The position numbers and the translations under genes were made by a program. Positions 39,231 through 43,054 of a stretch of 64,000 nt of DNA are shown here, piece by piece; the stretch's first letter is position 1; the number at the start of each line of letters is the position of its first letter. The notes under the pieces were generated by a model that did no database searches, was not told where the DNA came from, and saw only the letters and a list, made by a program, of their open reading frames with translations. The stretch is taken from contig NZ_AUFT01000005.1 in assembly GCF_000426645.1 (NCBI RefSeq), positions 124,001-188,000 of the forward strand, read 5' to 3'. This DNA is from Nakamurella lactea DSM 19367. Its GTDB lineage: Bacteria; Actinomycetota; Actinomycetes; Mycobacteriales; Nakamurellaceae.

Positions 39231-40467
39231 CCCACCCCCCAGTGTTGATCATGGGCCCCTGCACGGCATATCGGACACCTGATCGGCGTGTTGCGGGCTG
39301 GGCGCCATGATCATCAGTGGAGTTGCGAGCCGGGCACCATGATCATCGGTGTCGTTCGTCACTCCGCGGACAATGGTGCACCACGGTCACCGCGGAGTGA
39401 GCTCTCCGTCCCAGCCCGCTGCTCTGAGCGCGCGTTCGACCTTCACCAGGAACTGCTGATGTTCGGTGTAGATGTCGCGGGCTGTCGGATAGAACATCGT
39501 CCAACGTTCGTCGGTGAGCCCGTTGTGACGGCGGCGGTCGCTGGCCATTCTCCCGTCCCCGGTGTGGAACTCCTCGCTCTCGTAGTCCAGCCCGAGTCGG
39601 TAGCGCCCCCAGCCCAGATCGAGGTACCTGTTGCCGCTCCGTGTGGCGACGAGGATCTGAGTTTCCGGCTCCGGTAGTCCGTACTCGAGGATGCGCGTCC
39701 GCGTTCTGGATTCCATGGCAGAGCCACTGTCGTGTGCCATGAAGCCGTGCCAGCGGCGAACCTGCAGCACCCCGCGCCGACGCCCGGCCAGCGACAATGA
39801 TCGCGAGACCTCCTCTGCGGTCACACCTTTCGCGGCCGCGGCGTCGAGCTGAGCGAGCACGTCGAGGCCGGTGACAGCGCGCGCACCGTCGACGGCCGCG
39901 TCCACCCGATCGATCACCCGGAAGTCCGGCCACTCCAGAATCGGCGAGCGCGGCGGGGCCTGGTGGACGACAACCCCCTGAGGCGCCGCCAGCGATCGGC
40001 CCGCCGCGGTGGTCACGTGCAGCTTGTTGTCGGTGACCACCCCGAACCCGTAGTAGTCGGCAGCGCTGAGTCCACAGAGGATCAGCGGCTCGGCGATCTG
40101 CGCCTGGGCGCGGGTGAATCGCGCCATCAGGTCGTGATCCGGATCGGGAAGCTGGAGCCAACCGCGTCCGAGCGAGGTCAAATGGCCCTGCCCGACCCAT
40201 TTCGAGATCCGTTCCCAGCGGTAGCCCTGCCGTAGTTGGGCCATCCGGATTACGCCGCCCTGACGGCGTGCGAGCTGCAACATTGCTGGGTCCATCCGCC
40301 GAGCGTGGTGTGCATTCGGCCGCATCAGACAATCTCGGCGTAATTCAGTGGACAACCGGTCGTGGGTGGACAACCCCGCAACGGTGATGATCATGGCGCG
40401 CAGCCCGCGACGCGCCGCTGCGATACCCGTTTTGCCGGGCAGTCGCCCATGATCAACACGGGGTGGG
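39231..40467. mobile_element. Single-gene island bounded by mirror-symmetric inverted repeats
   Basis: Five copies of an 11-base motif with core TGATCA are arranged symmetrically around one - strand gene. Left: GTTGATCATGG (39244), CCATGATCATC (39305) and CCATGATCATC (39337). Right: GATGATCATGG (40386) and CCATGATCAAC (40447). The outer pair extends to CCCACCCC...GTGTTGATCATGGGC against GCCCATGATCAACACGGGGTGGG in two parts (39231-39256, 40445-40467). The inner pair extends over ~26 bases with 24 matches (GCGGGCTG[G/C]GCGCC before the motif). No transposase is present; this suggests a non-autonomous or self-acting nuclease element. Confidence 0.6.
39387..40325 (-). CDS. AbiEi/DUF559-like protein with Vsr-type nuclease domain
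   Basis: About 312 residues from ATG 40325 (MRPNAHHARRMDPAMLQLAR); the frame is open further, to an ATG at 40394 inside the right-hand repeat. The N-terminal ~70 residues form an AbiEi-type winged helix (LARRQGGVIRMAQLRQGYRW, LGRGWLQLP). The C-terminal third has the PD-(D/E)XK pattern of DUF559/Vsr proteins: RYLDLGWGRYRLGLDYESEE followed by FHTGDGRMASDRRRHN and a final helix. This architecture is common in actinobacteria as lone genes of unknown function, often annotated as type IV antitoxin-like. No partner toxin is adjacent. The flanking mirror repeats suggest it moves or acts on these sites. Confidence 0.65.
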   Translation of the reverse strand: MRPNAHHARRMDPAMLQLARRQGGVIRMAQLRQGYRWERISKWVGQGHLTSLGRGWLQLPDPDHDLMARFTRAQAQIAEPLILCGLSAADYYGFGVVTDNKLHVTTAAGRSLAAPQGVVVHQAPPRSPILEWPDFRVIDRVDAAVDGARAVTGLDVLAQLDAAAAKGVTAEEVSRSLSLAGRRRGVLQVRRWHGFMAHDSGSAMESRTRTRILEYGLPEPETQILVATRSGNRYLDLGWGRYRLGLDYESEEFHTGDGRMASDRRRHNGLTDERWTMFYPTARDIYTEHQQFLVKVERALRAAGWDGELTPR

Positions 40468-40496
40468 AGGGGAGCCCGCCGGCTAGCGGGTGGCGG

Positions 40497-40985
40497 CTAG
40501 CCGGCGCAGGGGTCCGGGACGCTGCAGTCCGGCGCGTGATCCGGGGGAGTGGACGCGACGATCCGCTGGAGCAACTCGCGGAACTGCCGGGCCTCCGCGG
40601 CGGTCAGTTCGCCCAGCACCTCGCGTTCGACGTGTTGGAGGCGCCGGGTCGCCGCGTCGAAAGCCTTGCGGCCGTTGGCTGTCAGCAGGATCTGTCGGGC
40701 CCGGCGGTCGACCGGGTCCGGCCGGCGGACCACCAGGTCTGCCTTCTCCAGATCGTCGACCAGGTAGGTCATCACGGTGCGATCGAGGCCGAGCCTTTCG
40801 GCGATCTGGGCCTGGCTCTCGCAGCCACCGGCGGCCGAGATGGCCAACACCTGGAACCCGCGCGGGCCGCCGGGAAGCTCGGCGACCGCCTGGGTGGCGC
40901 CGGAATGGTAGCGACGCATCAGTGCGCCGAGGGCCAGCCCGAAGTCGACGGATGCCCGCGTCTGTGGGGTGCTGGTCCCGGCCAT
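40497..40985 (-). CDS. MarR-family transcriptional regulator
   Basis: 162 residues from the ATG at 40985. The winged helix spans ~45-115: GPRGFQVLAISAAGGCESQA, QIAERLGLDRTVMTYLVDDL (recognition helix), KADLVVRRPDPVDRRARQIL (wing with the conserved Asp-Arg-Arg). Dimerisation helices flank it, and the tail contains two Cys (CSVPDPCAG). It is divergent from an FMN azoreductase-like gene, a common pairing in which MarR represses the reductase in response to quinones or electrophiles. The shared 121-bp gap contains a palindrome over the reductase promoter. Confidence 0.9.
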   Translation of the reverse strand: MAGTSTPQTRASVDFGLALGALMRRYHSGATQAVAELPGGPRGFQVLAISAAGGCESQAQIAERLGLDRTVMTYLVDDLEKADLVVRRPDPVDRRARQILLTANGRKAFDAATRRLQHVEREVLGELTAAEARQFRELLQRIVASTPPDHAPDCSVPDPCAG

Positions 40986-41025
40986 CGGCCCAGTGTATCC
41001 GCGGTCGCCTGTGGCGACGGTCACG

Positions 41026-41069
41026 TTGTCAGATGTTCTGTAGCCAATATGATCGGTAGCGCAGATCAT
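41026..41069 (+). promoter_or_regulatory. Azoreductase promoter with overlapping palindromic operator
   Basis: TTGTCA (41026-41031) and TATGAT (41048-41053) are spaced 16 bases. ATGATC (41049-41054) and GATCAT (41064-41069) form a perfect inverted repeat with a 9-base spacer overlapping the -10 and start region. The divergent MarR gene is the obvious candidate to bind it. Confidence 0.5.
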
Positions 41070-41106
41070 CGACCAGCAGGGTTGGGATCGTGATGACGGG
41101 AGCGCC

Positions 41107-41778
41107 ATGTCCGGCAGCAACAGCAGCACCATCTTCCGACTGGACGCCAGCATCCGGATCGAGGGCTCGGTGACCAGGGCGGTGGCCGACACGCTGCAGG
41201 CCACCATCAGCGCTGAGCTGGGGAACCCGGCGGTGGTCCGCCGCGATGTCGGTAGCGTGCCGCTCGGCGGTGCGGTCTGGGCCGACGCCGCACTGTCCCG
41301 GCTGCTGCCGGCCGAACAGCGAACGGGCGAGCAGCGGTCCGCGATCGAGCTGGCCGGCGAGCTCGCCGACGAACTGGCTTCCGCAGACACGCTGGTCTTC
41401 GCCGTGCCGATGTACAACTTCGGCGTCTCGCAGCATTTCAAGACCTGGTACGACATCGTCTCCACCGACCCGCGGCTCGCTCCCGGTGCCGACGACATTG
41501 CCGGCCGGCCCGCTTTTCTGGTGACAGCCAGGGGCGGCGGCTACGGTCCCGGCACCCCGCGCGAGGGTTGGGACCACGCGACCGCCTGGATGCAGCGGGT
41601 GCTGGTCGATGTCTGGGGACTCGATCTCGAGACGATCGAGACCGAGCTGACGCTGGCAGAGGTGACGCCACAGATGGCGGAGTTGCGTGATCTGGCCAAG
41701 CAGCAGCTCGCCGCTTCGCACGACACTGCGCGGGTCGTCGGGCGATCGGTGACCCATCGCCTGTTGACCGCGTCCTGA
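41107..41778 (+). CDS. FMN-dependent NADH-azoreductase-like flavoprotein
   Basis: 223 residues with a flavodoxin-like fold. The N-terminal RLDASIRIEGSVTRAVADTL corresponds to the phosphate-binding region of AzoR. TLVFAVPMYNFGVSQHFKTW is the hallmark FMN-binding MYNFGxP/S loop, and FLVTARGGGYGPGTPREGWD is the second flavin loop. Family members reduce quinones and azo compounds by two electrons with NAD(P)H. The gene is expressed divergently from MarR and likely inducible by its substrates. Confidence 0.9.
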   Translation: MSGSNSSTIFRLDASIRIEGSVTRAVADTLQATISAELGNPAVVRRDVGSVPLGGAVWADAALSRLLPAEQRTGEQRSAIELAGELADELASADTLVFAVPMYNFGVSQHFKTWYDIVSTDPRLAPGADDIAGRPAFLVTARGGGYGPGTPREGWDHATAWMQRVLVDVWGLDLETIETELTLAEVTPQMAELRDLAKQQLAASHDTARVVGRSVTHRLLTAS

Positions 41779-41800
41779 CCGCGCTTCGCTTGTCCCGTTG

Positions 41801-43054
41801 TTACCACCGGCCGGCCAGCCACAGCGCCGTGGTCGCCGCCAGCAGCGTCGACGGGACGGTCAGCAGGCCGAGCCGGGTGAAGGTGGCCAGACTGGCAGAG
41901 TGCTCGTTGCGCACCAGGATCCGGCGCCACAATAGGGTGGCCAGTGATCCGGTGTAGGTGAGGTTCGGGCCGATGTTCACCCCGATCAGAATCGCCAGGA
42001 TCGCCGTCGGTGCCGCGGGCCCGGCGGCGGTGATGGCGCCGAGCAGCAGCAGGGTCGCCGGCAGGTTGTTCAGCAGATTGGCCAGTAGCGCTGCGATCCC
42101 GGCCAGTGTCAGCAGGGTGAGCCAGCTGTCGCCGGCCGGCAGTGCGGTCGAGATCGCCTGCTGCAGGCCGTGTCCGGTGACGCCGTCGACCACCACGCCG
42201 AGGGCGCCGACGAACAGGATGAACAGCGGGTTCGCCGCCATCAGGATCGCGCCCGGGGCTCGCTGGCCACGCACCATCGCCCGGACCGCCATCGCCGCGG
42301 CGCCGGCCGAGGCGACCACCCATGGCTGCACGGCGAACACCGGCGCGACCACGAACCCGGCCAGCACCAGTCCGATCAGTACCAGCGAGGTCAGCGGCGG
42401 CCGCACGGCGGCGCCGCGCACGACCTCGACCCGACCGCGCAGGTCGCCGGCGAAATAGCCACGGAAGACCAGGTACTCGACCGCCAGAGCGGCCAGCCAT
42501 GGCAACGTCATCAGAGCGGCGAAGTGCAGGAACGTCAGCCCGGATGCGTGGAATGCCAACAGGTTCGTCAGGTTCGAGATCGGTAGCAGTACCGACGCGG
42601 TGTTCGCCAGGTGCGCCGTCGCGTACAGATGCGGGGACGGCCGCACCGTCAGCCTGCGCACCGTTGCGAACACCACCGGCGTCAACAGCACCACGGTGGC
42701 ATCCAGGGACAGTACGGCCGTAGTGACCCCGGCGACGCCGAAAACCAACAGCAGCAATCGTTGCGCCGAGCCGCCGCTGCGGTGCGCCATCAGGTCGCCG
42801 ATCCAGCGGAACACCCCGTCGGCGGCGGCCAGCTGCGAGATCACCAGGATCGCTGCCAGGAACCCCAGGGTCGGGCCAAGTTCGGCGATCGTCCGCCAGG
42901 CCCGGGTCGGGGTGACGATGCCCAGCGCCAACAGCAGGCCGGCGGCCGGTACTGCCGCGACCGCCTCCGGCAGGTGCCGCGGGCGGATGACGGCGAACGC
43001 CAGCACCGCCATCAATGCCACGACGCCGATCGTGGTGGCCGCCGCAGCGGACAC
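41801..43054 (-). CDS. ArsB/NhaD-like (SLC13-type) permease
   Basis: 417 residues with 11-12 hydrophobic spans. Features of the ArsB/NhaD ion transporter superfamily are the internal duplication, the re-entrant TASVLLPISNLTNLLAFHAS and ANLLNNLPATLLLLGAITAA hairpins (NLTN and NNLP motifs), and the repeat-2 IGVNIGPNLTYTGSLATLLW loop. ArsB members export arsenite, while NhaD members exchange Na+/H+; no arsenic genes are nearby, so the substrate is open. The GTG start at 43054 is three bases after the thioesterase stop, indicating co-transcription. Confidence 0.83.
   Translation of the reverse strand: MSAAAATTIGVVALMAVLAFAVIRPRHLPEAVAAVPAAGLLLALGIVTPTRAWRTIAELGPTLGFLAAILVISQLAAADGVFRWIGDLMAHRSGGSAQRLLLLVFGVAGVTTAVLSLDATVVLLTPVVFATVRRLTVRPSPHLYATAHLANTASVLLPISNLTNLLAFHASGLTFLHFAALMTLPWLAALAVEYLVFRGYFAGDLRGRVEVVRGAAVRPPLTSLVLIGLVLAGFVVAPVFAVQPWVVASAGAAAMAVRAMVRGQRAPGAILMAANPLFILFVGALGVVVDGVTGHGLQQAISTALPAGDSWLTLLTLAGIAALLANLLNNLPATLLLLGAITAAGPAAPTAILAILIGVNIGPNLTYTGSLATLLWRRILVRNEHSASLATFTRLGLLTVPSTLLAATTALWLAGRW

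Follow-up and report, generated by a model that had tools for sequence, protein, structure and literature searches.

The locus considered here raises the question of why a single nuclease gene should lie enclosed between mirror-image copies of a repeated sequence. It occurs within the window (the whole stretch of 64,000 nucleotides analysed, from Nakamurella lactea DSM 19367; co-ordinates given without a contig refer to it), and a preliminary description had drawn attention to motifs with a TGATCA core on either side of the gene, those on the left being exact inverts of those on the right. A scan of the window sequence places five such cores at 39246, 39308, 39340, 40388 and 40450, and the mirror symmetry is indeed exact for both the outer and the inner pairs of motifs; the longer, imperfect arms that had also been described were recovered in a repeat search of the window as inverted arms of 82 nt (39235-39316 and 40385-40466) that are 80% complementary. 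Each side of the gene carries one complete palindrome-ended element, its two outer TGATCA cores spanning 68 nt. Both elements start and finish with an inverted TGATCATGG-type motif, and the two copies are mutually inverted across the gene, the one on the right lying immediately 5' of it and covering the first codons of the longest ORF. The features are as follows (the alignments A1 and A3 and the repeat model R1 are described below; G000 is the genome to which the window belongs).

39240 to 39319, plus strand: left dispersed palindrome-ended element (REPIN-like), 3' of the gene; a seed row of A1 and the best R1 match (80.9 bits), with inverted arm 39235-39316.
39320 to 39353 (about 39320-39349), plus strand: partial third copy, equivalent to the right half of the element; a 32-nt direct repeat of 39290-39321 (81%), and also a partial R1 match (G000:C3:163320-163349, E 0.128).
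39387 to 40394, minus strand: the single nuclease gene, a 335-aa ORF whose true start is likely to lie near 40295 (Met34).
39411 to 39728, minus strand: nuclease domain of EDxHD/Vsr type, residues 223-328; structure matches to 3r3p and 1cw0, and conservation in A3.
39735 to 40298, minus strand: AbiEi-like module (winged helix plus AbiEi core), residues 33-220; structure match to 6y8q, and PADLOC AbiEi.
40382 to 40461, minus strand: right dispersed palindrome-ended element, in the opposite orientation to the left one; a seed row of A1 and an R1 match (75.6 bits), with arm 40385-40466.

The TGATCA core itself, which the preliminary description had used as the marker, proved a poor guide: the 6-mer occurs 40 times in the window as against 9.7 expected from dinucleotide shuffles, making it about four times commoner, so that it is the element of roughly 80 bp rather than the 6-mer that carries the signal. 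CCATGATCA alone was likewise rejected as a marker, having 97 sites in the genome, of which the contexts that were read are mostly unrelated sequence and about ten have a partner; a reversed-pattern control for this motif gave 0, but as the reversed pattern contains CTAG, which is a rare word, this is not a fair control. Perfect 11-bp inverted repeats are also present at 39359-39400, covering the gene's 3' end, and at 40477-40506, close to that of the MarR gene, and are possible terminators.

As regards the enclosed gene, the ORF at 39387-40394 on the minus strand is the only long one between the arms with matches to known domains. AbiEi models match it with E 1.2e-10 (PADLOC), there are weak Pfam matches to AbiEi and MTES_1575, and NCBIfam gave no match above cut-off. 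In an AlphaFold2 model built on a 30-sequence alignment (A3; mean pLDDT 85.4, pTM 0.81), residues 33-220 resemble the AbiEi antitoxin 6y8q of S. agalactiae (Z 10.5, rmsd 6.2; Foldseek E 6.3e-6), while residues 225-328 match the EDxHD homing endonuclease I-Bth0305I, 3r3p (Z 11.4, rmsd 2.5, 96 residues) and also Vsr, 1cw0 (Z 9.0). At the level of this predicted structure the identity of the domains is clear, and the earlier reading of the product as an AbiEi-like module joined to a Vsr-type nuclease is borne out by PADLOC, by the weak Pfam matches and by the model alike. Across the 30 sequences of A3, E228 and H277 show no variation and D259 and D286 hardly any, giving an E-D-H-D pattern that is consistent with an EDxHD active site, taking the residue-to-residue mapping as presumptive. 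Pfam matches among these 30 family members comprise MTES_1575 (27/30), DUF559 (17/30), AbiEi_4 (14/30) and AbiEi_1 (13/30). The ATG lying within the right-hand motif, which had been put forward as a possible start, is probably not the true one; Met34 (at about 40295) is the better candidate, because the domain begins at around residues 33-37 in the family alignment and residues 1-25 of the model have pLDDT below 50. Beside the gene in the window lie livF and a MarR-type gene, neither of which is an AbiEii partner, and no AbiEii product is annotated beside three annotated relatives.

In the genome as a whole the flanking elements are far from alone. When the 5.82 Mb were searched by pattern for pairs of inverted motifs separated by 40-68 nt, eight places came to light, and R1, a sequence-only model made from an alignment (A1) of eight seeds, finds 17 at E < 1e-8, namely the eight seeds and nine new ones. 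The gene, in contrast to its elements, is single-copy in G000 (the next-best protein matches are 23-33% identical), and to judge from their co-ordinates the other 15 element places all lie more than 10 kb from the paralogues found by protein searches of this genome. With 17 full copies in 5.82 Mb, and with the same layout recurring around relatives, the flanking arrangement is beyond chance. The proposal of a minimal element enclosed by its own motifs thus stands in so far as the motifs do bracket the gene, but with 17 dispersed copies they are not only its own ends. Six of the eight family genes in G000 in the protein-search set have flank repeats, whose sequences differ among the genes, the two without being the short ORFs L004 and L007.

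The presence of two among 17 elements within 1.2 kb is, for one genome taken alone, only mildly unlikely (estimated at about 5%), and it might be supposed that something else moves the repeats, such as a Y1/HUH transposase or host repair, with the nuclease gene merely hosting two copies. There is in fact one match to Y1_Tnp (IS200-type) in G000, at G000:C9:135685-135969 (L290). However, this has an internal stop, leaving no intact Y1 transposase match in G000, and none of any kind was found in two other genomes that carry the elements, G009 (100% complete, in one contig) and G015; moreover, homologues of the nuclease gene are repeatedly flanked by repeats of their own. We therefore regard another mover as very unlikely.

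A further association of gene with repeat comes from a comparison of 17 genomes of the same genus, in eight of which a homologue was found at E ≤ 1e-15. R1 has matches in four of the 17 (17 places in G000, 11 in G009, 7 in G015 and one weak match, E 1.9e-4, in G013) and none in the other 13. G009 contains the closest homologue of the window protein, 40% identical over the best segment, and has the same 59-nt motif spacing; its R1 matches are weak (E about 1e-5 to 7e-4), so that to speak of the “same family” across genomes means a family resemblance. G015 is the awkward case, having 7 elements (at L157, L160, L162, L164, L166, L169 and L170) and no detected homologue of the window-gene clade: its best match to the family alignment A2 scores 106 bits, as against more than 430 for cognate genes, and the flanks of that match are without a repeat. 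These elements are possibly orphans with no cognate gene, but in an assembly that is 88% complete and in 400 contigs, loss of the gene is indistinguishable from its absence from the assembly.

A second gene/repeat pair behaves in an all-or-nothing manner. TCGACCGGAATGAKA occurs in exactly two of the 17 genomes, G010 (10 matches) and G013 (23 matches), which are the two whose gene is flanked by it, while its reversed control gave 0 matches. The variable base of this motif is T in all the G010 matches and G in all those of G013, and the inner stem also differs between the two genomes, with compensatory changes on both arms; in ten aligned elements (of 22 found) there is a 22-pair palindrome, with changes on both sides preserving pairing at four pairs. 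Covariation judged in this way gives the same signal for a single-stranded hairpin as for a symmetric double-stranded dimer site. The fixed base and the matched changes in the palindrome imply that gene-flanking and dispersed copies evolve together within each genome. Dispersed doublets amount in all to 17, 11, 7 and 15 elements in four genomes.

When the flanking motifs were sought around relatives, as the preliminary description had suggested, repeats were found to recur there, each with its own gene-specific sequence. Of the eight genus homologue loci other than the window's own, six were examined and five have repeats on both flanks, the sixth (L095) having a palindrome on one side; the sequences of these repeats differ between gene lineages. 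That description had also allowed that motifs without an adjacent DUF559 gene would count against it. Taken literally, this is just what the dispersed copies are, yet across genomes the repeats track the gene family, for which mobilisation in trans is a better fit than homing of a single cassette.

Beyond the genus, a scan of named genome contigs with the single protein found no relative, whereas an alignment-based scan (A2) of the same contigs gave 55 loci, mostly in Nocardioides, Williamsia, Gordonia and their relatives; the family is a common one among actinobacteria. Many of the flanks at these loci are tandem arrays, with units in one direction 5' of the gene and in the opposite direction 3' of it and almost none in the wrong orientation; the period is 21 bp in Gordonia and Williamsia, 22 bp in Nocardioides and 25-44 bp in a few. 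The two forms are not wholly separate, since at G000:C17:82389-82465 (L041 990-1066) five tandem 17-bp units with CCATGATCA abut a full element, an arrangement intermediate between hairpin and array. Mirrored arrays with a GTGATCATG core were also noted in the distant relatives L135, L138 (Streptomyces sp. NP160), L131 and L105 (Kineosporia), from which it appears that a TGATCATG-type motif recurs with the protein family outside the genus.

In order to put numbers to this, each gene was given a flank score, defined as the local alignment of its two flanks, with cut-offs at 50 and 45. The gene set was made non-redundant by dropping the duplicate L227 and merging members more than 80% identical (121 to 106 clusters), and two with too little flank were removed, leaving 104. 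Scores of at least 50 were reached by 70 of these 104 actinobacterial genes as against 1 of 101 control ORFs (Fisher p 1.9e-27), and at the cut-off of 45 by 74 genes as against one control ORF. Among these 74 positives 44 are inverted-only (mostly arrays), 25 are of the hairpin type and five are other; the hairpin form is 55-80 bp long, while the mirrored tandem arrays are mostly of 21-22-bp units. The 30 members scoring below 45 include some short or broken ORFs and others that are intact. A first gene-anchored control had given 3 of 43 at 50 or above, but two of these came from L201 (the G009 homologue itself and the next ORF), and since L201 holds that homologue it was left out of the second control, whose sole positive is L207. 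The ORF adjoining the G009 homologue (L201 9365-11141) has strongly repeated flanks, with a score of 129. At 342 random positions the maximum inverted score was 44.

Actinobacterial intergenic DNA is rich in hairpins and TGATCA is common in the window, and it is therefore natural to ask whether chance, or ordinary terminator hairpins in intergenic DNA, might account for all of this. As a general explanation that is refuted by the 70 of 104 genes against 1 of 101 controls and by flanks in which both sides carry the same sequence, differing from gene to gene; the all-or-nothing co-occurrence of TCGACCGGAATGAKA also speaks against it, and we give it negligible weight.

A further test used named records that were chosen regardless of their flanks, comprising six family members from a protein search of a plasmid collection together with Nonomuraea (seven of the 17 records matched). 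Five of these seven independent loci passed the flank-repeat test, one was borderline (42) and one failed; at the Nonomuraea locus (L317) no flank repeats were found. The five hairpins were then sought in 72,556 records and occurred at 20 places in 8 records, 12 in 9, 39 in 2, 11 in 2 and 6 in 1, every one of the five being dispersed only in the strain that carries its gene. Among the best places listed for these hairpins most have no annotated feature beneath them, the gene table being an incomplete one. In each of Tsukamurella tyrosinosolvens NCTC 13231 and Arthrobacter StoSoilB13 two genes were tested and each has its own hairpin, which shows that such genes can occur together in a single genome, two or more at a time, with a separate repeat family for each. 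The plasmid labels call for some caution: the Tsukamurella and Arthrobacter “plasmids” inspected hold usually chromosomal genes such as purB and pstB, and the plasmid-labelled Tsukamurella records L311, L314 and L315 (NZ_LR1344xx) resemble pieces of chromosome. The protein of L128 matched 17 plasmid records and one phage record.

At L311 (match H17), as in the window, the upstream element abuts the start codon, and AbiEi antitoxins are DNA-binding regulators. These two points together suggest a different reading, in which the repeats are operators of the AbiEi-like module, serving autoregulation and a regulon, while the nuclease has some other role and the spread of the repeats has another cause. 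Such a reading leaves the downstream copy, the genome-specific turnover of sequence and the conservation of the catalytic residues unexplained, and we think it distinctly unlikely.

Copies of the repeat turn over between related genomes. None of 13 dispersed copies in G013 has flanks in common with any of the five dispersed copies in G010, whereas at the gene locus the flanks of the two genomes align at 85-93%. A search with joined flanks found one G013 element site that is without the element in G010; about 115 bp are absent there from the interval separating a stop codon from the conserved gene that follows, which is more than the element, so that the junction is inexact. Another two G013 elements (L297 and L287) are absent from G010, in intergenic DNA too diverged for junctions to be read, and no target-site duplication or clean junction was seen in these diverged filled/empty pairs.

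The cassette of gene and flanking repeats has itself moved on occasion. It is inverted in place, with the same neighbours on both sides, between L108 and L109 and between L111 and L132; it lies on opposite sides of a two-gene block in L127 and L134; and it separates two neighbours in L098 that are 191 bp apart in L145. Sites without the gene were sought near livF, as had been proposed, and were found: in G001 and G015 no homologue separates livF from the thioesterase gene and polA beside it. In G009 the homologue is present and adjoins the same thioesterase gene. Synteny around livF in G006, G007 and G008 gave no clean empty site. In the window itself, the MarR-type gene and two more genes (40497-43054) lie between the cassette and the thioesterase/polA pair.

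One may therefore consider whether what lies here is a minimal mobile cassette, with the mirrored repeats as its two ends and the nuclease moving or inverting the whole, the dispersed hairpins being solo ends or relics. The inversions, the relocation and the filled and empty pair L098/L145 would all agree with this, as would the resemblance of the strictly oriented mirror arrays to multi-site transposon ends. However, the cassette gene usually occurs once and the short elements many times; elsewhere its location is often conserved between species (in a strict tblastx comparison of neighbours); ordinary recombination between inverted repeats can invert a cassette; and the gene that L145 does have is without a flank repeat (score 25). 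On balance the cassette reading is unlikely.

What the observations most resemble is a REPIN and its enzyme. REPINs are among the common bacterial repeats, and the enzymes so far linked with them are, to our knowledge, tyrosine transposases. As set out in the available part of PMC3116915, REPINs are inverted REP doublets, one of them with 71 bp between 16-mers, and the available descriptions of REPIN/RAYT systems (TnpA-REP, REPtron) share with the present one a single-copy gene flanked by doublets, and elements that are hairpin-capable, genome-specific, dispersed and of similar size; REPIN doublets lie in extragenic DNA. The RAYT gene is rarely or never found on plasmids according to the part of PMC8049555 available to us, and the window protein likewise had no match in the plasmid collection. 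The main difference lies in the enzyme, which in REPIN/RAYT systems is an HUH/Y1 tyrosine transposase and here, from Pfam, PADLOC and the predicted structure, an AbiEi-like module with an EDxHD/Vsr nuclease. In addition, mirrored tandem arrays replace hairpins in many members, the hairpin form being a minority family-wide (25/74) although inverted doublets do flank the gene as in a REPtron, and no GTAG tag was seen at the element ends when the alignments were read by eye. It is because the defining enzyme of the REPtron was looked for and not found that the system is set apart here as a kind of its own; weighing anatomy over enzyme, it could be called a REPtron variant.

Other comparisons are less close. 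CGTC-tagged REPs and TIRtrons also involve palindromic repeats, but their tag motif was not seen here and TIRtrons carry tyrosine transposases; a term search for actinobacteria in the available part of the paper describing them found none. MITEs and insertion sequences have terminal inverted repeats with a target-site duplication; the present elements have palindromic ends, and filled/empty pairs as diverged as these resolved no target-site duplication. I-Bth0305I, which dimerises on a target of nearly 60 bp according to the accessible part of PMC3943268, shares the EDxHD nuclease fold (Z 11.4) and a dimer target close in size to the element, but differs in that the present gene is not intronic and its putative site is a many-copy repeat beside the gene itself rather than one empty allele. 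MTES_1575/DUF559 proteins are described as having the Vsr REase fold in PMC3710099, where, in the part available, they appear in large fusions with HEPN and helicase domains, whereas here the genes are solitary and have flanking repeats. The N-terminal two thirds resemble the S. agalactiae AbiEi (Z 10.5) of the AbiE type IV toxin–antitoxin system, from which the present gene differs in having no adjoining AbiEii gene and a fused nuclease. In the open-access literature no description was found of a DUF559/AbiEi nuclease with flanking or dispersed repeats.

Gene-specific flank repeats, several families of dispersed repeats, co-occurrence of gene and repeat, and lineage-specific turnover of copies are thus matters of observation, and from them we infer that the protein binds and cuts the repeat and that the repeat spreads as a result. 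The substrate would be the palindrome-ended element (about 60-80 bp) that brackets the gene and is scattered through the genome. A pair of protomers might occupy one element, each on one of its inverted half-sites, or in the array form might bind 21-22-bp units that follow one another, a proposal prompted by the I-Bth0305I dimer target of nearly 60 bp (PMC3943268, available part), which is near to the 59-68-bp spacing seen here. The nuclease domain would nick or cut at the element, and repair of that cut would then copy or move the element to other intergenic sites in trans. The gene itself would remain single-copy, as a rule passing down at a fixed position and now and then being inverted or relocated together with the repeats beside it. 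Counted against this scheme are the seven elements of G015 without a cognate, the 30 of 104 genes that score below 45 and the 44 of 74 positives that are inverted-only. Even so, we consider a REPIN-like system in two parts fairly likely, in which this gene supplies the enzyme and its own repeat is recognised and spread in trans.

The nuclease, then, is probably the enzyme by which a hitherto undescribed kind of genomic repeat is recognised and spread. Taken more broadly, there is a slightly better than even chance that actinobacteria contain a second, independent REPIN-like class, whose dispersed hairpin or array repeats are recognised and propagated by a hydrolytic EDxHD nuclease bearing an AbiEi-like module rather than by a tyrosine transposase, and which is made up of many orthogonal pairs, sometimes several per genome. 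Such pairs amount to a collection, already at hand, of sequence-specific nucleases whose candidate targets are known, which makes the claim directly testable. If it is true, systems of a repeat and a single-copy enzyme would have evolved at least twice in bacteria, once by way of a non-homologous nuclease; the widespread “DUF559” family would gain a function, and hairpin families in actinobacterial genomes that have no transposase would be accounted for.
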